DNA of 33,936 nucleotides from Deltaproteobacteria bacterium (GTDB lineage Bacteria > Desulfobacterota > Syntrophobacteria > Syntrophobacterales > Syntrophobacteraceae): positions 1-33,936 of the forward strand of contig JAJYDE010000045.1 of NCBI GenBank assembly GCA_021777755.1. The letters are read 5' to 3'. The stretch's first letter is position 1; every line of letters begins with the position of its first letter. The notes beneath the pieces are model-generated. The model was not told the DNA's origin and ran no database searches. It worked only from the letters and a program-made list of their open reading frames with translations. This document shows, one piece after another, positions 1 through 6,446 of the stretch. Both the position numbers and the translations under genes were made by a program.

Positions 1-426
1 TGCTCGGTCTTCCCATTTCTGGTCCAAGACCTGAGCGCCTCTCTCTCAGAGTCGTTTAATTTTATAGGAGTCGATCTCATCGAAGCAGGGTACATTGTTT
101 CGCGAAATTATGCAAGTTAGTACTAGTATGGTTCATAATGGTGAGGAAAAAAGGTGAACAATCAATCTTGCAAGAGCCAGTAATATATAGAATATCTTTT
201 TTAAAACTAACAATACAAATAAAGGCTGAAATAACAGCTACTATATGGTATATTCGCCCAGTTAAAATATACTTACGAAATAGCCCTGGAATACATTCAG
301 AAAAACGATTTAAGATGGCTTTTATCGTGAATGCCATAAATCATAATTACGCCTTACTAATTATCGATAAGGAAATGAGGGCGAATTTCGTTTGTCATCC
401 AATTAGACTAAAAGGTTGCCCGCATT
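1..426. other. AT-rich stretch without a convincing gene
   Basis: Two overlapping AT-rich reading frames exist here (138-461 plus, 77-337 minus). Neither has a clear ribosome binding site or a recognisable family, and they exclude each other. The minus frame would have one hydrophobic segment. An 11-bp match to the inverted resolvase half-site (TGCCATAAATC) lies at 332-342. Otherwise I see nothing that can be assigned. Confidence 0.4.
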
Positions 427-630
427 TTATTCGGCATTGTATACTTTGGGCTGCGACTTAGCTGTTTGGGAGTTGGGATCTGGTCGACAAGGTTTCTTCG
501 GCGAGGAAAGATTGGGTCTGACAAAAATACCTTTCGTGCTGCCTCTTTCCAATATTGGGTCAACCAAAATACCCCAAGCCATAGCGGCCAAGGTTGCAAT
601 TCCGCCTGCGTTGATTATTTCATTGAACAT
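427..630 (-). CDS. possible small hypothetical protein (67 aa)
   Basis: This is a weak candidate gene. The N-terminus (MFNEIINAGGIATLAAMAWG) is hydrophobic and could form one short membrane segment, followed by a polar, Pro/Lys-rich tail. An AGGGG motif lies 9 nt upstream of the ATG on the minus strand, which is the best argument for translation. An overlapping plus-strand frame (416-634) competes for the same DNA. I recognise no family. A phage-type small membrane protein would fit the accessory context, but that is only a guess. Confidence 0.25.
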   Translation of the reverse strand: MFNEIINAGGIATLAAMAWGILVDPILERGSTKGIFVRPNLSSPKKPCRPDPNSQTAKSQPKVYNAE

Positions 631-966
631 TTAGGATAGCCCCTTTGTTTAGAATGCTGACTTTTTGAGAGGCAACCGCCTATCGGTTGAGTGGTGTTGA
701 GGAGAAGGACCCAACTCCATCCGCCCCTGTCTGAGAGGAAAACCCTTTCATTTGCCCGAAACGCTCGGCAAATGACAAGAAAAAAATAAGCGTTTTCTTC
801 TGGAATTTAAAAAAAGCACGTCGTCAAGCATCTTGTCAATCCCCCATGTTTTTGCATGGAGAGAGAGAGGAAAAAAACTGGACAAAATCACGTCTTTTGT
901 CTGGTTTCTGAAAACCGTGCTCAGGATTCATGCGGGTTTGCGGGGGAACGTGGGGGCCGGAAACTA
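631..966. other. non-coding stretch with a hairpin
   Basis: No supported gene lies here. The sequence is rich in A-tracts and AGAGAG. A strong hairpin with a 10-bp stem and one bulged C lies at 749-774 (CATTTGCCcGA paired with TCGGCAAATG, loop aacgc). No T-run follows it on either strand, so it is not a typical intrinsic terminator. Confidence 0.4.
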
Positions 967-1036
967 GACAAATTGCCGAACTCCACAAAAAAATGGCTTG
1001 CAATCCGTTGACAAATTAGCCAACATCCCCATTATG
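967..1036 (+). promoter_or_regulatory. candidate promoter/operator of the HigBA-type operon
   Basis: Two near-identical 15-mers, GACAAATTGCCGAAC (967-981) and GACAAATTAGCCAAC (1010-1024), lie just upstream of the TA operon and could be binding sites for its antitoxin. A TTGACA hexamer (1008-1013) is followed after 17 nt by ATTATG (1031-1036), which overlaps the toxin ATG at 1034. If that is the promoter, the mRNA would be nearly leaderless. No Shine-Dalgarno sequence is seen before 1034. Confidence 0.35.
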
Positions 1037-1378
1037 AGAGATACGCGGCCAATTTCATGGATAAGGGGTGCTCAGAGGGAATTCGAGGATTTCCCCGAAG
1101 ACGTACAGGACGTTATGCTGAGGGCCTTAACGATAGCCGCCAAGGGGGGCATATCGAATAAGGTCAAGCCATTCAAGGGCGTTGACGGCGGCGTATTTGA
1201 AATTGCCTTGCGGCATCGAGGCGACGCTTTCCGCGTGATTTACGCCGTTAAGATAGGCGCGGCTATTTGGGTTATCCACGCCTTTCAAAAGAAGTCCAAG
1301 ACCGGCATCAAAACGCCTCAGATGGAGGTTGACCTTATCCGTGAGCGCCTGAAACGATTAAAGGAGGTCTTACAATGA
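1034..1378 (+). CDS. higB: HigB/RelE-type toxin, phage Gp49-like family
   Basis: This is a 114-aa protein of the phage-derived Gp49-like/HigB group. Members of this fold are mostly ribosome-dependent mRNA endonucleases. The family pattern is clear: a WIRGAQREFEDFP start, a central VKPFKG segment, FRVIYAV, and the highly characteristic HAFQKKSKTGIKTP block followed by a basic C-terminal helix (LIRERLKRLKEVLQ). I chose ATG 1034 because the family aligns from there. A TTG at 998 in the same frame would add 12 unlikely residues. The stop overlaps the next ATG (ATGA), so toxin and antitoxin are translationally coupled in toxin-first order, as in HigBA. The family call is firm; the exact target is not visible. 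Confidence 0.88.
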   Translation: MRDTRPISWIRGAQREFEDFPEDVQDVMLRALTIAAKGGISNKVKPFKGVDGGVFEIALRHRGDAFRVIYAVKIGAAIWVIHAFQKKSKTGIKTPQMEVDLIRERLKRLKEVLQ

Positions 1379-1704
1379 GCGACGACGATTTTGAACTTGT
1401 GCACGGCAGCGGCAATGTGTTTCGGGATTTTGGCCGTCCTAACGCCGATCTTGAACAAGCCCGCGCCATTATTGCGGCGGAAATCATCCGCACTCTTGAC
1501 GGGCGCGGCCTATCGACGCGAGAAGCCGAGAAGTTGACGGGCGTGAAGCATTCCGAGTTTTCACGCATTCGCAATGTAAGGCTTGAACGTTTCACGCTTG
1601 ACCGGATGATCACGATACTCGGAAAGCTGGACGAAGACGTTGAAGTCAACGTGACCTTACGGCCACGGCCCCGCGCGGCTTCGGGGGGAGAATTACACGC
1701 CTGA
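1375..1704 (+). CDS. higA: HigA-type XRE antitoxin
   Basis: This is a 109-aa helix-turn-helix antitoxin of the XRE type that pairs with Gp49-like toxins. The HTH lies at about residues 38-75 (STREAEKLTGVKHSEFSRIRN, then LERFTLDRMITILGKL) and is followed by a short beta-like tail (VEVNVTLRPRPRA). An AGGAGG-like site before ATG 1375 sits inside the toxin 3' end, and the genes overlap by 4 nt. It should neutralise the toxin and repress the operon, possibly through the GACAAATT repeats upstream. Its last 12 nt overlap the 3' end of the convergent resolvase gene. Confidence 0.88.
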   Translation: MSDDDFELVHGSGNVFRDFGRPNADLEQARAIIAAEIIRTLDGRGLSTREAEKLTGVKHSEFSRIRNVRLERFTLDRMITILGKLDEDVEVNVTLRPRPRAASGGELHA

Positions 1705-2247
1705 AGCGGCCAGTCCTCTGTAAAGCGTTCGGCGTGAGACGTTGAGCGATTGCGCCACCGTGTCGGGGCGCTCCCCCTGTCCTATAAGCCTGCGGGCGTG
1801 GGCGACCTGTTGCGGTGTCAGTTTGGGTTTGCGGCCCATCTTTACGCCACGGACGACGGCAGCCGCGCGACCGGCCTTTGTCCGCTCCTGAATGAGCGAC
1901 CGTTCAAGTTCCGCGAGGATGCCGACAATTTGCCACTTGGCGCGGCCCGTGGCCGTTGTGGTGTCGATTGATTCCGTCAGCGACCGGAAGGCTACGCCCC
2001 GCGCCTTCAGATCGTCCATGAGAATGATAAGGTCACGTAGCGACCGCCCCAGGCGGTCGAGCTTCCAGACCGTCAGCGCATCCCCTTCACTCATGGACTT
2101 GAGGCACTTTGTCAGTTGAGGCCGGTTGACGTTCGCGCCCGTGGCCTTGTCCGTGAAGATTTTTTCGCACCCCGCCCCCTTCAAGGCCGTTAGTTGAAGA
2201 TCGGGGTTTTGATCGTCCGTCGATACACGCGCATAGCCGATTTTCAT
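1693..2247 (-). CDS. serine recombinase, resolvase/invertase family
   Basis: This 184-aa small serine recombinase is of the Tn3-resolvase/Pin type and has the usual length. The catalytic serine is Ser9 in YARVSTDDQ. The Arg-rich active-site block VWKLDRLGRSLRDL follows at about 60-73, then the long E-helix (about 100-130, GILAELERSLIQERTKAG). A C-terminal HTH (about 142-180) reads TPQQVAHARRLI...TVAQSLNVSRRTLYR. All catalytic motifs look intact. A res-like site lies directly upstream (2276-2347), in the gene order typical of tnpR-res. No transposase gene is adjacent, so it may serve multimer resolution or be left over from a transposon. It converges with the HigA-type gene with a 12-nt overlap. 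Confidence 0.93.
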   Translation of the reverse strand: MKIGYARVSTDDQNPDLQLTALKGAGCEKIFTDKATGANVNRPQLTKCLKSMSEGDALTVWKLDRLGRSLRDLIILMDDLKARGVAFRSLTESIDTTTATGRAKWQIVGILAELERSLIQERTKAGRAAAVVRGVKMGRKPKLTPQQVAHARRLIGQGERPDTVAQSLNVSRRTLYRGLAASGV

Positions 2248-2275
2248 GCCTTATTTCTCGCCCTGTTTTGTCCCT

Positions 2276-2347
2276 GATTTATGACACAGCAAGCCCTTGA
2301 TAACACAGAGGCGCGTCCTTGTGTCAAAAATCTAGATTTATGGCACA
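2276..2347. promoter_or_regulatory. res-like recombination site of the serine resolvase
   Basis: A 28-bp imperfect palindrome at 2320-2347 consists of TGTGTCAAAAATC, a central TA, and GATTTATGGCACA. The arms differ at only 2 of 13 positions. This matches the size and TA centre of Tn3/gamma-delta res subsite I. A second half-site, GATTTATGACACA, lies at 2276-2288, about where subsite II is expected. The resolvase start is at 2247, so subsite I is distal to the gene, as in known res sites. Subsite III is not clearly seen. The resolvase promoter probably overlaps. Confidence 0.6.
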
Positions 2348-2411
2348 GGGCACAGGATTCGCTTGCCGGTAATTCGGCTAAGGGCTTGCGAGAATAAAAA
2401 AGGGGGGTCGT

Positions 2412-3191
2412 TCAGTGCGGATCAGGGTTTTGGACTGATCCTGACCGTTGGTAAGCCTTGGCGACGAGCAGCCGTTGCTGCTTCAGCCATTCGAGTACTG
2501 ATGGCGGCAACGGATTCAACACGATATAAGTATCCTGCCTCAATGTCTGTGAGGCAGTCTGTGCCGTGGCCGAGGACTTGTTGCCAGAAGTATAGTTAAG
2601 TTCGTTTCCATGCTTCTCTTGTAGCATAAAAAGGGTTTCAGGGCGAGCCGCTATTTTTCGGCCTCCACCCGTCTCGGTTAGCGTCGTCATGCCGATGACG
2701 TGGCCCCCGTTCACTTCAATATAGCCTCGCAGATTAGCAAGGGTACCTCCAAAGCCAACGTGGTCATCTACAAGAAAATAATCACTTCCTTGGATGATCG
2801 TGCCGGTGAATGTGGCCGGTGTCACGAGCCTATGCCAGCCATTAGCCCGTGTATGGGCGACATAGTTGGATTGCCCAATATCATAAGATGCCATCTGTAA
2901 ACTTAGCGCGGCAGCCAAGGCTTGCGCCATGGCGTCGGGTATCGCATTAAAGCCGCCAACCTCAAGAGCCGCCGCAGGAACAACAAAAGGTTGACGCGAG
3001 CCGATCAGCTGCGCGATTTCTTTTACGCTGTCCGGCGATAGGAGATCATCAACAAGCTGTTGGGCGGCGGTAATATCGCCAGCCTTTGCCTTTTTGTAAG
3101 TAGGATGAGCATTCCGCGTATGCAAATCATTGTGAATGATGACATCCGGGAAATTTGCTGGCCAAGGTGTACGCGGGACATAGGTGCTCAT
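2412..3191 (-). CDS. phosphoribosyltransferase-fold protein
   Basis: This 259-aa protein carries a type I phosphoribosyltransferase PRPP-binding loop, YFLVDDHVGFGGT (about residues 138-150, acidic pair D142-D143, then Gly-rich to T150), preceded by beta-strand-like segments (QPFVVPAAALEVGG at about 67-80). The N-terminal 60 residues (YVPRTPWPANFPDVIIHND...) and C-terminal 60 residues are not part of the core fold. I recognise no purine or pyrimidine salvage signature, so the substrate is unknown. Such orphan PRTases do occur on mobile elements. It is a single gene between copies of the resolvase half-site (2335 and 3273). ATG 3191 was chosen as the first start after a GGAGGGG stretch about 12 nt upstream. 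Confidence 0.7.
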   Translation of the reverse strand: MSTYVPRTPWPANFPDVIIHNDLHTRNAHPTYKKAKAGDITAAQQLVDDLLSPDSVKEIAQLIGSRQPFVVPAAALEVGGFNAIPDAMAQALAAALSLQMASYDIGQSNYVAHTRANGWHRLVTPATFTGTIIQGSDYFLVDDHVGFGGTLANLRGYIEVNGGHVIGMTTLTETGGGRKIAARPETLFMLQEKHGNELNYTSGNKSSATAQTASQTLRQDTYIVLNPLPPSVLEWLKQQRLLVAKAYQRSGSVQNPDPH

Positions 3192-3272
3192 AGCGACATT
3201 TTTCCCCTCCGCGTTGTTTATAGATCAATAGTGGACTATGCGGCTAGAGATTTAACGATAGGCCATTGTTTT

Positions 3273-3285
3273 GATTTATGGCACA
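3273..3285 (+). repeat. third copy of the resolvase half-site
   Basis: GATTTATGGCACA here is identical to 2335-2347 and in the same orientation. The left partner (3259-3271) matches the expected inverted arm at only about 8 of 13 positions, so this is at best a degenerate subsite. With the res-like site it brackets the PRTase gene, about 938 bp apart. A GC-rich hairpin (CCCGCC gaagat GGCGGG) follows at 3307-3324. Confidence 0.5.
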
Positions 3286-3359
3286 CCCTGCCCGCTTACG
3301 GGCGAACCCGCCGAAGATGGCGGGCCGGGTGCTACTCGCTTCGCTCACCGAGCCGGACC

Positions 3360-4001
3360 ATGGCAACGATTCATGCGCTTGCCGATCCTAAAAACCCGCG
3401 CAATGCCGATTTTTTAAGCAAGCATCCCGCCATTGAAAATACGCTATTGGCGATAAAGAACAGAATTTGCGGGCGTGTCGATCTGAACAACGCTCGCATT
3501 GCCGATGTTATTAATTTTTATCTGAACCAAGCGAAGCGCACGTTCCAAACGAACGGTGAATACAGTGTGGACGCCATCGTGGCCACGGCGTTACTGCGTA
3601 TCGAAGCGGTCATGGATAAAAATACTGGGCTTGCCGCTGGCGGTTCTGCGGTCGGTGAAACAGAAAAAACCAAGACAGACGCGACGGCTGCTGACAAAAC
3701 CTCTTCTAATATATTTTTGCTTTATATTTCCGAGGAGGCCATTCGGAAGGCGGAGAGATATTATGGGAAGGACAGAGAAGGGCTGATAAGGGAACTGGCG
3801 TGGCGCGAAGTAGCAGCCAAGTGGGGGGGATCATCTCGAGTCGCTGAAGCGAGGTCCGTTAAAAACCGTCAACTTTCGCCAAGATTTCTCTCCTTTGGCG
3901 AAAGTTTAGCGAAAGGTCGGCGAAAGTGGTCAAGGGTTAAGGACGGTGCCATGATACCGTTCTGGAATTTTTGTCGTAACACTGTGTTATGTTTCCCTTG
4001 A
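3360..4001 (+). CDS. hypothetical protein of the mobile region
   Basis: This is a 213-aa protein that I do not recognise. The open frame extends upstream to 3060, but that part overlaps the PRTase gene antisense. ATG 3360 begins a sensible protein (MATIHALADPKNPRNADFL). Residues 20-95 look alpha-helical (IENTLLAIKNRI, VINFYLNQAKRTF, VDAIVATALLRIEAVMD), followed by a Thr/Lys-rich linker and a second helical part (YISEEAIRKAERYYGKDREGLIRELAWREVAAKWGG). After about residue 160 the composition changes to Arg/Ser/Phe, where the DNA carries 11-bp repeats. The original C-terminus may therefore have been replaced by a junction. A role in plasmid or element maintenance is possible but unsupported. Confidence 0.55.
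   Translation: MATIHALADPKNPRNADFLSKHPAIENTLLAIKNRICGRVDLNNARIADVINFYLNQAKRTFQTNGEYSVDAIVATALLRIEAVMDKNTGLAAGGSAVGETEKTKTDATAADKTSSNIFLLYISEEAIRKAERYYGKDREGLIRELAWREVAAKWGGSSRVAEARSVKNRQLSPRFLSFGESLAKGRRKWSRVKDGAMIPFWNFCRNTVLCFP
3871..3926. repeat. iteron-like 11-bp repeats with a perfect 12-bp inverted repeat
   Basis: A 12-bp perfect inverted repeat (AACTTTCGCCAA at 3871-3882, TTGGCGAAAGTT at 3895-3906, 12-nt loop) leads into three phased copies of RGCGAAAG starting at 3897, 3908 and 3919, exactly 11 bp apart. Such helically phased repeats are typical of binding arrays (iterons or operators). They sit inside the end of the preceding reading frame and about 100 bp before the DUF4258/MqsA-type operon. 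Confidence 0.55.
3977..3989. promoter_or_regulatory. palindromic candidate operator of the second TA operon
   Basis: TAACACTGTGTTA is a perfect 13-bp palindrome, 39 nt before the toxin start at 4029. MqsA-type antitoxins repress their own operons by binding palindromes upstream, so this is the natural candidate site. A -10-like TGTTAT overlaps it, but I could not identify a convincing -35. Confidence 0.4.
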
Positions 4002-4028
4002 CCATTAAGCTCATGGGAGATTATCATC

Positions 4029-4322
4029 TTGATCGAGCCGCTTTCCTCTTCGGAGGCGATAAGGCGTATTCGAGAAATCGCCAATCTCGGTTCTGTCCAG
4101 ACGACAGGACACTGCCGGAAGAGGATGGCTGAAAGAGGGCTTGGGTTTCAGGATCTGCTCTCGATATTATTGAATGGAGAGATAAAAAGCCAGCCTGAAT
4201 ACGACCCAAAGCACGACCAGTTCAGGTATCGGGTGGACGGAAATACAATCGATGGGGATTCAGCCGTAGCCATAACCGTGATCGTGAGTTCCCGTTCGGT
4301 TTTGATTGTTACCATTTTTTAG
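4029..4322 (+). CDS. DUF4258 family protein, putative type II toxin
   Basis: This 97-aa protein is of the DUF4258 type, small alpha/beta proteins commonly encoded before MqsA/YgiT-like antitoxins and thought to be RelE/MqsR-like RNases. The family pattern is the helix-His block TTGHCRKRMAERGLGFQDLLSIL, then a strand-rich half (FRYRVDG, AITVIVSSRSVLIVTIF). I chose TTG 4029 because a GGGAGA sequence (4015-4020) lies 8 nt upstream. It is 9 nt from the antitoxin gene, so the two form an operon. The toxin role is inferred from family and context; no catalytic residue can be named with certainty. Confidence 0.8.
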   Translation: MIEPLSSSEAIRRIREIANLGSVQTTGHCRKRMAERGLGFQDLLSILLNGEIKSQPEYDPKHDQFRYRVDGNTIDGDSAVAITVIVSSRSVLIVTIF

Positions 4323-4331
4323 GAGCCGGTC

Positions 4332-4823
4332 TTGGATAATCTGGAAAGATGCCCGACATGCGGCGGTGAGCATTTTGCCTTCAAGAAAACCCATTACCAC
4401 TTTCTTGAGAGTGGGCTTGACAACGTTCATCTGACCAACGTTGAAATCGGGATTTGCAGCGAATGCGGCGAGGAAATCGTTTGCATACCCCACTCGACGG
4501 AACTGATGAAACTGATCGGCGAAAGCGTCCTGCTTAAACCCATGAACCTCAATGGCGCGGAAATCCGGTTCCTTCGAAAAAATCTTCATCTCAAGATAAC
4601 CGATTTCGCCCAACTGCTCGGAGTGGATCGGGTCACAGTGTCCAGATGGGAAAATGGACACGAGAAACCTTCGAGAGCCGTTGACCGGCTGGTAAGGCTG
4701 ACCTATGCGGTGGAGGCAAAAATCACTGAAGCGACAATGGAGCAGGTGAGAAAGAATCTCAGAAGTGAAGAAGTCGATTCCAAGGTGGATTACTTCGTGC
4801 CGGTCCCATTGGCATCATGGTAA
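4332..4823 (+). CDS. MqsA/YgiT-like zinc-finger HTH antitoxin
   Basis: This 163-aa two-domain antitoxin has an N-terminal zinc-binding domain with CPTCGG (residues 7-12) and a second pair, CSECGE, at about 39-44. A C-terminal XRE-type HTH spans about residues 75-130 (LRKNLHLKITDFAQLLGVDRVTVSRWENG). This is the MqsA architecture. The start is TTG 4332, with AGGAG at 4321-4325 at 6-nt spacing. It should bind the DUF4258 protein through its N-terminus and DNA through its HTH, with the palindrome at 3977-3989 as the likely operator. The tail (SKVDYFVPVPLASW) is short and intact. Confidence 0.88.
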   Translation: MDNLERCPTCGGEHFAFKKTHYHFLESGLDNVHLTNVEIGICSECGEEIVCIPHSTELMKLIGESVLLKPMNLNGAEIRFLRKNLHLKITDFAQLLGVDRVTVSRWENGHEKPSRAVDRLVRLTYAVEAKITEATMEQVRKNLRSEEVDSKVDYFVPVPLASW

Positions 4824-5220
4824 TTTTTCGGACTTTCCACAGAAACAAAGCTGAATGTATGTCCTCAATCTCCCGCTGCAAAAAGCAGAAGCCCCACAAG
4901 GGGGCTTCGCAGCCCAAGGTCGAAACCTTGGGGGGATAACAAATTTAAAGACTGAAAAATAAAACCTTTGAAGCGGCGTTTCAAGAAAAATCCAAACATC
5001 GTAGCGGCTGATCGGCGCGCCGGAAGTTTTTGGGGACATTTAACCGCCGAACCTTCGGCTGACTCCCTCACTGTTACTCATCGTTACCTGCGGTTTGGAC
5101 AAATTCGGGCAAAAATTTTGGAGCCAAAATCGTGGGTAGCGATGGGGATCAGCCGCCATATTTATCGGTCACTGAATCAATTTTCCCACTCGACGACCAG
5201 CACCATTCTGTCCCGCGAAT
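4824..5220. other. non-coding stretch with several hairpins
   Basis: No supported gene is seen. Two GC-rich hairpins follow each other: GAAGCCCC...GGGGCTTC (4888-4908) and CCAAGGT cgaa ACCTTGG (about 4914-4928). They may end transcription of the TA operon, although no T-run follows. Further on is a long imperfect palindrome at about 5079-5146 with a perfect inner repeat, ATTTTGG ag CCAAAAT (5115-5130). Reading frames here on both strands lack starts or family resemblance. Confidence 0.45.
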
Positions 5221-5442
5221 TCAAACCCAACGCGACCCTTTGAATTCGCCCCGAAGCCTGTAAAAACCATCGCCGAGGGAAAGGAAATATTTTTTGTATG
5301 TAAGACTATGGTCGCCGCTTGCTCCGTTTGCCAGAGCTACGACGATATATTGTTCTGGTGACTCCGGGGTCCACCCCTTCTCCCTGATGACCTTTCGAAC
5401 ATCCTTGGTTGGTAGAAAACGGCTCTGATAGAAAGCCGGTAT
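5221..5442 (-). pseudogene. start-less protein fragment, unknown family
   Basis: On the minus strand a frame open between two stops reads like real protein (FLPTKDVRKVIREKGWTPES..., ...YKKYFLSLGDGFYRLRG..., ending GSRWV) but has no ATG. It therefore looks like the 3' end of a gene whose front was lost where the integrase remnant begins. I recognise no family. Its stop lies inside an inverted repeat (GAATTCAAA at 5217-5225, TTTGAATTC at 5239-5247). Confidence 0.35.
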
Positions 5443-5837
5443 TCACTGCTGCAACAACTTCCCTGTTCAGACCGCGACCTACGATGTGGATTCGTTCAGG
5501 AAAAAATCCTTGGACAACCGCTCCAAATGATGCCGGGGTTGGCTATAGGGTTCCATATAGCACAAGGCATACTTTTGCCGCGTGGTCATTGACCCTCGGG
5601 ATGGACCCGAACAAGCTCGTAAGGCGCATGGGGCATGGTTGGAAGAAGATGGTTCATGAAGTGTACGGGAACCATGTCGAAGGTATTCAGAAGGACGCGG
5701 GCGGGATTTTGGAGTATTGTGGCAATGACTTCATCAACTTACTAAAAGAGAAAGCCTCCGCTTTCACCACCGGGGAAAGTAACGGTGAAAGTCGAAGGCT
5801 CATGAAAGCCAAAACTGGTGGAGGCGGCGGGAGTTGA
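5409..5837 (+). pseudogene. tyrosine integrase remnant, truncated and frameshifted, abutting ssrA
   Basis: Only the C-terminal catalytic part of a phage/island-type tyrosine recombinase remains. YSTRHTFAAWSL holds the RH pair, LVRRMGHGW the GH motif, and HEVYGNHV the likely catalytic Tyr. A full integrase has 350-400 residues; here the N-terminal arm and core-binding domains are missing. Just upstream, the matching sequence (NFPVQ, then TYDVDSFRKK) is in another frame, and the switch falls at a run of six A (5501-5506), so a frameshift in a homopolymer is likely. The frame ends in GGGGGS inside the tmRNA 3' end. This is the classic arrangement of an element integrated into ssrA, so the gene marks the right end of the element. 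Confidence 0.8.
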
Positions 5838-6170
5838 ACCCGCGTCCGAAAGCATTCCGCCAAAGCTTCTACATGCTTATTCCGCTCTTTGATTCTCGCT
5901 TCGGCGACCTCCTGCGGACCGGATTTCGCCGACGCCAGCCCACTGAATCTCGTCGCCGTCACTGCGGGCATAATGACGGCAACCATCCCACTTAGTCGAC
6001 GCCTCCATGGTCCCCGCAGGAACAGGACCTGGAGACGGCAGCCGCGGTTAAGCGGCTACAGCGTACGCGTAATCGTCAGCGTTTGTTTTATTCCCCGCTG
6101 TTTTACGAGCAGCAAGGACCTCGGCATGCGACTTGAGCTTCTCTACCTCCGTCGAACCCGTTGCGCCCCC
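5816..6170 (-). ncRNA. ssrA: transfer-messenger RNA (tmRNA)
   Basis: This 355-nt tmRNA is read on the minus strand and rescues stalled ribosomes. The 5' end GGGGGCGCAACGGGTTCGAC and the 3' end (T-arm GGGTTCAACTCCC and encoded CCA, 5816-5818) form the tRNA-like domain. The acceptor stem GGGGGCG pairs with CGCCUCC, with one G-U. The tag frame (6080 down to 6048) encodes ADDYAYAVAA followed by TAA, which ends in the usual Ala-Ala degradation signal and resembles deltaproteobacterial tags. The GC-rich middle carries the pseudoknots. The integrase remnant overlaps its 3' end, and the gene copy is complete. Confidence 0.95.
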
Positions 6171-6191
6171 CTTTCTTATTGTAATAGAGCA

Positions 6192-6219
6192 ATTGTATCT
6201 TGTTTCCGGTCATTGTCAA
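6192..6219 (-). promoter_or_regulatory. ssrA promoter
   Basis: On the minus strand, TTGACA (6219-6214) and TACAAT (6197-6192) are separated by 16 nt, a near-consensus sigma-70 promoter. The mature tmRNA begins 21 nt after the -10, leaving a short leader for RNase P to remove. Confidence 0.7.
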
Positions 6220-6446
6220 GTAGGCTGATGTCCGTCCGGAACCCCGGGGATTCGGAGGGTGTCTGGAACTCGGGCCGCCCCGGGTTGGAGTCCGTCCGGA
6301 AAGCAAGCGGTGGGCAAGAGGAAGCCTTTGGCCACCCTTGAAACCGCGCCGGCCGAACCGGTGGGCACAAGCAGTACCGTGCCCGCCACCGCGAGGAAGT
6401 CGGGTTCCCGGACGCCAGGGCAGGCTCGGCAGGCTGCATCCATGCG

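Follow-up and report, generated by a model that had tools for sequence, protein, structure and literature searches.

A resolvase res site as a probable joint for the swapping of stability genes across a bacterial genus

Integrons combine an elaborate platform site, adjacent to the gene for the recombinase, with simpler sites on the individual units, and they use a tyrosine integrase and folded attC sites. The pdif sites of Acinetobacter are acted on by the XerCD tyrosine recombinases. A shuffling function of resolvases was reportedly put forward by Kholodii in 2001, mosaics being formed by recombination at res sites in mercury transposons. The plasmid dif modules of Acinetobacter, in the passages of PMC13141974 used here, are site-bounded, often carry toxin–antitoxin genes and are shuffled at short sites. 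For Tn3 transposons, the passages used from Lima-Mendez et al. (2020, PMC7157771) describe toxin–antitoxin pairs, including Gp49/HTH_37, that abut res site I. They also describe hybrids whose homology breaks at site I, from which those authors infer resolvase-mediated exchange, and they call the recruitment of the pairs unclear at the molecular level. The case described below was not found in print in the open-access full texts searched, where the nearest papers were those on Tn3 toxin–antitoxin pairs and on SGI1 resolution.

The locus compared here with these systems lies on contig C35 of genome G000. The window is the whole stretch of DNA that was analysed (33 936 nucleotides). The features concerned are as follows.

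998–1704, plus strand: Gp49 toxin/HTH_37 antitoxin pair, adjoining the resolvase gene at its 3′ end (Pfam, Gp49 2.6e-20, HTH_37 1.3e-18)
1693–2247, minus strand: small serine recombinase (resolvase) of 184 aa, open over its length (Pfam and alignments to relatives of solved structure)
2264–2307, plus strand: putative accessory part of the res, lying between the resolvase start and site I and conserved across seven aligned res loci
2320–2347, plus strand: predicted res site I, 28 bp, core TA at 2333–2334; the joint where left and right neighbours change
2335–3272, plus strand: PRTase (phosphoribosyltransferase) unit, made of the right arm, the gene transcribed towards the site and the promoter end; core-to-core length 938 bp
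2412–3191, minus strand: KfrC-type phosphoribosyltransferase-like gene, frameshifted near codon 200 (tblastn)
3271–3317, plus strand: right copy, made of core TT, GATTTATGGCACA (3273–3285) and the right-flank motif CGCTTACGGGCGAACCCGCCGAAGA (3293–3317)
4029–4823: DUF4258/MqsA-like toxin–antitoxin pair (Pfam)
5816–6170: tmRNA gene

The recombinase matched Pfam Resolvase (PF00239, 4e-43) and HTH_7 (PF02796, 1.3e-8), that is, the catalytic domain and the C-terminal helix-turn-helix of the small serine recombinase/resolvase class. Alignments over the whole length were obtained with the solved DNA invertase 4m6f (2.6e-50) and with the gamma-delta resolvase 1gdt (4.4e-31); its best solved relatives are DNA invertases, followed by the gamma-delta and Tn3 resolvases. 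Relatives of the recombinase, 75–80% identical to it, are present in one genome of the same family (G408) and in two of the same genus (G402 and G397). Seven res loci (the window, 408C170, 408C39, 402C78, 397C363, 397C223 and 402C61) were aligned; they had been picked for showing the res arrangement. Between the start codon and the palindrome, the accessory motifs were conserved across the seven loci and conservation ended with the palindrome. The palindrome, TGTGTCAAAAATC-TA-GATTTATGGCACA, had been called res-like in a sequence-only reading of this DNA, which gave its length and TA centre correctly. Judged from its conservation, together with that of the accessory region upstream of the gene, at six further loci in the genus and family, it is site I of the resolvase's res. 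The accessory part holds a 25-bp site III-like stretch (2264–2288, TGTTTTGTCCCTGATTTATGACACA) and a further arm (2297–2307, TTGATAACACA), from which we infer separate sites II and III. A 49% identical resolvase of the same genome (G000:C102) had no such site upstream of it, as judged by eye. The resolvase reading frame was uninterrupted at three of the seven res loci (the window, 408C170 and 408C39) and broken in 402C78, 397C363 and 397C223; at 402C61, just the first codons adjoin the res. The broken or truncated genes at four of the seven loci (L061, L062, L063 and L069) look as if the system were decaying there.

The repeats were checked by direct reading and with a repeat finder. The two identical 13-bp copies of GATTTATGGCACA were found at 2335–2347 and 3273–3285, both on the plus strand and in the same direction, as had been claimed. 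The variant copy GATTTATGACACA lies at 2276–2288, also on the plus strand, and belongs to the accessory part of the res. The further 11-bp match in reverse orientation that had been reported at 332–342 is present as well. The pattern GATTTATGGCA occurred seven times in the window's own genome and its reversed form not once. In the model listing, no full site was found at the 332–342 match or at two GATTTATGGCA matches on contigs C6 and C26.

Sites of this type were then located in relatives. A degenerate site pattern had matches in 6 of the 11 genomes of the genus, and the reversed control had none in all 11. The 38 matches of this search include many that are both strands of one palindrome; places were therefore counted, and G400 (one match) and G404 (four matches at three places) were left out of this count. 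A sequence model made from 21 sites and searched against 59 genomes yielded two more sites (408C66 and 402C159), which brought the tally to 7 res sites and 16 solitary sites. Model matches below E 0.009 came from five of the 59 genomes, and exactly these five had a resolvase match with 75% identity or more (in G401, a fragment only); the co-occurrence is partly circular, as the training sites of the model were taken from the same five genomes. Weaker site-like matches were found in G404 (best E 0.017) and G400 (0.094), both without a close resolvase; a weak partial match in G420 (E 0.0096), outside the five genomes, was left uncounted. A relic of the accessory part of the res was kept at the solitary sites 408C66 (on its left) and 401C225. 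Plasmid searches returned three records of 20–23 bases each with the res region as query and two records of 18 bases with the C24 site, and the exact site had no match in viral contigs.

The solitary sites are nearly palindromic and were oriented by their arms and core, so that 'left' is partly a convention. A TT core (which would read AA in the other orientation) was present in 14 of the 16 solitary sites versus one of the seven res sites (Fisher p 0.0017), and the variation of the res cores may lock units in place. At ten of the 16 solitary sites, a toxin–antitoxin operon lies on the left and its promoter faces the site. Five of these operons were recognised with Pfam (C24, C19, 402C159, whose toxin is cut short, 402C78b and 408C66), four by DNA identity to pairs named with Pfam (397C33, 397C260, 401C213 and 401C225) and one by eye (401C105, in which Pfam found nothing). 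No toxin–antitoxin pair was recognised on the left of the other six, in one case owing to a short contig. Twenty-five loci were scanned with a site matrix, for which three matches of at least 11 bits were expected from shuffling. Two strong sites were found in just one locus, 402C78 (L061) of G402, where they surround a Gp49/HTH_37 pair in a layout of 942 bp, the window counterpart being 938 bp. Weaker second matches reached 23 bits in L069 and L153, which are one place, and 17.5 bits in L062.

The PRTase-like ORF is the sole gene between the identical copies of the window, as had been stated earlier; to that description must be added a frameshift, which the sequence-only reading had missed. 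In tblastn, the ORF matched the KfrC/phosphoribosyltransferase genes of the five IncP/IncU plasmid copies compared at 38–43%, four sphingomonad copies at 53–55% and G401:C168 at 75%. Compared with the relatives that match past this point (L004, L005, L006, L009, L010 and L058), its frame changes near codon 200, and its last 60 residues are out of register. Because of the frame change, this copy is probably inactive, unless there is a sequence error at that position. In the passages of PMC8124265 used here, the N-terminal phosphoribosyltransferase domain of KfrC (RA3) is held responsible for toxicity in excess, and plasmid stability is altered in kfrC mutants. Like KfrC of IncP/IncU plasmids, the window gene has such an N-terminal domain, assigned by homology: residues 1–195 are 43% identical to the phosphoribosyltransferase whose gene follows kfrA and kfrB on the IncP plasmid pUZ8002. 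That protein reaches 24.1 bits with PF00156, under the cut-off of 26.3, and a Pfam search of the window protein gave no match. Unlike KfrC, it is without the long C-terminal alpha-helical extension (259 aa versus 448 aa in pUZ8002) and is frameshifted. Among viral contigs, 10 stretches fitted a PRTase pattern and none of them encodes a relative. A KfrC-like phosphoribosyltransferase is added to the list of cargo, which fits a role in stability or addiction.

Flanks of up to 600 bp were compared at 24 places, i.e. the 23 sites (7 res and 16 solitary) and the right half-site of the window. The same left flank was found in 29 pairs, which fall in four families and are thus not 29 independent cases (21 pairs among the seven res loci, six among four Gp49/HTH_37 loci, one RelE/XRE and one DUF4160/DUF2442); 27 of the 29 had nothing in common on the right (E 0.001). 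The Gp49/HTH_37 copies 402C78b, 397C33, 397C260 and 401C213 share 84–93% identity that ends no more than two bases from the site, and the right neighbours of the four sites differ. Nine pairs shared a right flank. In two of them the common stretch starts at the first base after the site, and in the other seven it starts 14–493 bases from the site. The first of the two joins the window to contig C24, which belongs to the same genome; identity is 97.7% across 86 bp, at which point the C24 copy of the PRTase unit runs into the contig end. The unit is behind the resolvase in the window and behind a DUF6088/Fic pair in C24, the DUF6088 match being barely above its cut-off. The second joins 408C170 to 408C66 (87% over 102 bp), where the same flank follows the resolvase-res in the former and a DUF4160/DUF2442 pair plus a res relic in the latter.

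The sites thus exist at many places, they are conserved, and the breakpoints of left-flank homology typically coincide with them. From these comparisons it is fairly probable that the res site has served as a joint at which stability genes are swapped by the small serine resolvase and its relatives, and such res-site shuffling across a genus is better supported than a local excisable cassette. The exchanges would have been made by this resolvase family and presumably take place at the core dinucleotide. In the proposed mechanism, the stand-alone resolvase (1693–2247) would bind the res (2264–2347), and this enzyme and its relatives would recombine site I (2320–2347) with the site-I sequences scattered through the genomes of the genus, most of these partners lying beside toxin–antitoxin operons. 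Strand exchange at the central dinucleotide would swap the DNA to the left and right of the site, so that stability genes would be reassorted; the reassorted units would be Gp49/HTH_37, RelE/XRE, DUF4160/DUF2442, VapBC, DUF6088/Fic and the KfrC-like PRTase. In the window, insertion or exchange would have placed the PRTase unit between the resolvase-res and the DNA that starts at 3286. Against this mechanism stand the resolvase gene being open in three of seven res loci, the invertases being its best solved relatives, the non-TT cores at six of the seven res sites and the site-like matches in genomes without a close resolvase. A wider proposal is made tentatively and is, in our judgement, possible but rather doubtful: a stand-alone resolvase would run the capture of stability genes, with the res as platform and the solitary 28-bp TT-core sites on toxin–antitoxin and PRTase units as partners, and the genus would reassort its addiction modules without a transposase or an integron integrase.

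The surroundings of the cluster bear on another agent. Toxin–antitoxin pairs lie on both sides of it (998–1704 and 4029–4823), and an Rfam search of 1–6300 with a lax threshold gave the tmRNA gene and two sub-threshold permuted-tmRNA matches. The ORF at 5409–5837 resembles the end of a tyrosine integrase by eye and has no Pfam match. Because the tmRNA gene and the integrase-like ORF are beside it, the cluster probably belongs to an island. Beside the same DUF4258/MqsA-like region, G404 has a 30-bp repeat of the tmRNA end (L066, 6434–6463) and G395 the tmRNA gene itself (L067, 7272–7355), so that the genus probably has an island site here. The ORF right of the half-site (3357–4001) has no Pfam match, and its first 117 codons had no match in plasmids. 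Relatives of the window Gp49/HTH_37 pair were also seen in G402:C164 and G403:C52 (L064 and L065; toxin 61–91% identical in the matched pieces), in stretches where the site scan found none, which indicates that toxin–antitoxin pairs also move by other routes.

A tyrosine recombinase or the movement of islands could have built the mosaics, with the res sites as passive passengers; we regard this as unlikely. Besides the adjoining tmRNA gene and integrase-like remnant and the many broken resolvase genes, it would account for the tyrosine-recombinase 3′-end fragments, recognised by eye and by mutual similarity, that lie to the right of four sites (402C78, 408C170, 408C66 and 397C100) and, in G401:C168, to the left of the PRTase gene. 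However, in the resolvase, Gp49 and PRTase families the breakpoints are at the resolvase site and not at those gene ends. The recurring piece, a short tyrosine-recombinase-like 3′ end (28–102 bp in the comparisons), was observed at 5600–6250 in G401:C168 (L058) and beside the sites of L061, L059, L150 and L113, at the edges of shuffled units, like a second joint. Since these ends recur at several junctions, a second recombinase may also have a part in the shuffling.

Shuffling at the res has also to be set against the earlier proposal that the two direct copies bound an excisable or reversible cassette. That the right copy lacks a good partner arm had been recognised then, and the left arm is indeed absent at 3258–3270: the 13 bases before the core are ATAGGCCATTGTT, with 8 mismatches of 11 scored, and the full-site matrix gave no match at 11 bits. 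The core of this copy is TT versus TA at site I. The state without the segment was sought in relatives and was seen in G397:C223, where a res is followed by the right flank without the PRTase, about 24 bp plus the right arm being common with the window. The right-flank pattern CGCTTACGGGNGAACCCGCCGAAAG, written from the window and G397:C223 flanks themselves, matched with at most three mismatches in 2 of the 11 genomes of the genus, once each and both times just right of a right arm (window 3293–3317; G397:C223, directly behind the res). This pair is too short to be listed in the 24-place comparison. Its alignment beat 200 of 200 shuffles; the shuffle comparison and one recombinase-fragment comparison were made with 22 of the 24 flanks, without 408C66 and 402C159. 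From this common right flank, the window looks like a PRTase-free junction with the PRTase unit added between.

It is improbable that the segment is still active, i.e. that the resolvase deletes 2348–3285 between the direct copies. The identical right arms in direct orientation, the open resolvase gene of the window, the similar layout of 402C78 with two full sites around a toxin–antitoxin pair and the PRTase-free junction of G397:C223 would all suit such a deletion. They are met by the missing left arm and a site score under 11 bits, by the unmatched cores and by the frameshifted cargo gene; moreover, in the part of PMC12217951 used here, the SGI1 resolvase did not bind half of site I. A simple excision product of the window, with the crossover at identical cores, was rejected as a candidate for the same two reasons, the TA and TT cores and the missing arm; cores that differ in this way should block simple exchange. 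With one arm of the right site absent, the cores unmatched and the gene frameshifted, the PRTase unit of the window is probably no longer mobile. Of the cassette proposal, the movement as a unit seems to stand, the C24 copy being behind another left neighbour, and excision today is not supported: the idea is probably right as history and doubtful as a present switch. The sequence-only reading had picked out a genuine joint and named a mechanism of the right type. The PRTase gene looks like one swapped-in unit, now broken and locked in place, and the many units exchanged at the site are a broader phenomenon than one switch.

We give equally little credence to the 28-bp palindrome being a regulatory operator of the resolvase or of the toxin–antitoxin operons, with the modules shuffled by other means. 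Resolvases commonly repress their own promoter, and 10 of the 16 solitary sites (one by eye) are on the promoter side of a toxin–antitoxin operon. Yet the palindrome is common to unrelated toxin–antitoxin families, homology breaks at it, and conserved accessory motifs accompany it in the res loci. Short chance repeats beside ordinary neighbours are very improbable indeed: the right copy is just 13 bp without a partner arm, but all three occurrences of GATTTATGNCACA in the own genome (4.2 Mb; none of the reversed pattern) lie within about 1 kb in the window, and the flank right of 3285 is found again at a res flank in G397.

Recombination at res as a joint for stability genes can now be placed beside the known systems. 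As in integrons, a complex site lies beside the recombinase gene and simpler sites lie on the units. Unlike in integrons, the recombinase next to the site is of the serine type, no IntI tyrosine integrase was found there, and in the 25 loci scanned with the site matrix no integron-like or long multi-cassette array in one orientation was seen. The Acinetobacter dif modules depend on XerCD, in contrast to the small serine recombinase here. The mercury transposons of Kholodii differ in their content, the modules exchanged here being stability modules in one genus and a relative.

The Tn3 transposons are distinguished by their transposase, which was not found in the same element here. The Tn3 transposase profile (PF01526) gave five matches in G000 and none on the window contig C35; it gave none in the assembly of G397, which has two res loci (both resolvases broken) and four solitary sites. 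This search left out G408. A C-terminal fragment of a Tn3 transposase was observed directly right of the solitary site of G401:C253 (L109, 7702–8034) and is the only Tn3 link seen at the sites. The many solitary TT-core sites and the KfrC-like cargo are further differences. Here the right-hand gene points towards the res in the three loci looked at (the window, 402C78 and 397C223), and toxin–antitoxin pairs are also found left of solitary sites, where the res has its resolvase. In contrast, most Tn3 pairs directly adjoin the resolvase gene on its upstream side, and those drawn as tnpR examples in the passages used from PMC7157771 are transcribed away from it. The genus offers loci without a Tn3 transposase match beside the sites (one fragment excepted), and these sites are simple enough for tests on plasmids. 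The comparison suggests a possible route by which toxin–antitoxin and other stability genes get recruited and swapped: the exchange of toxin–antitoxin pairs at res sites, known from Tn3, appears here to have acted on loci without a transposase.
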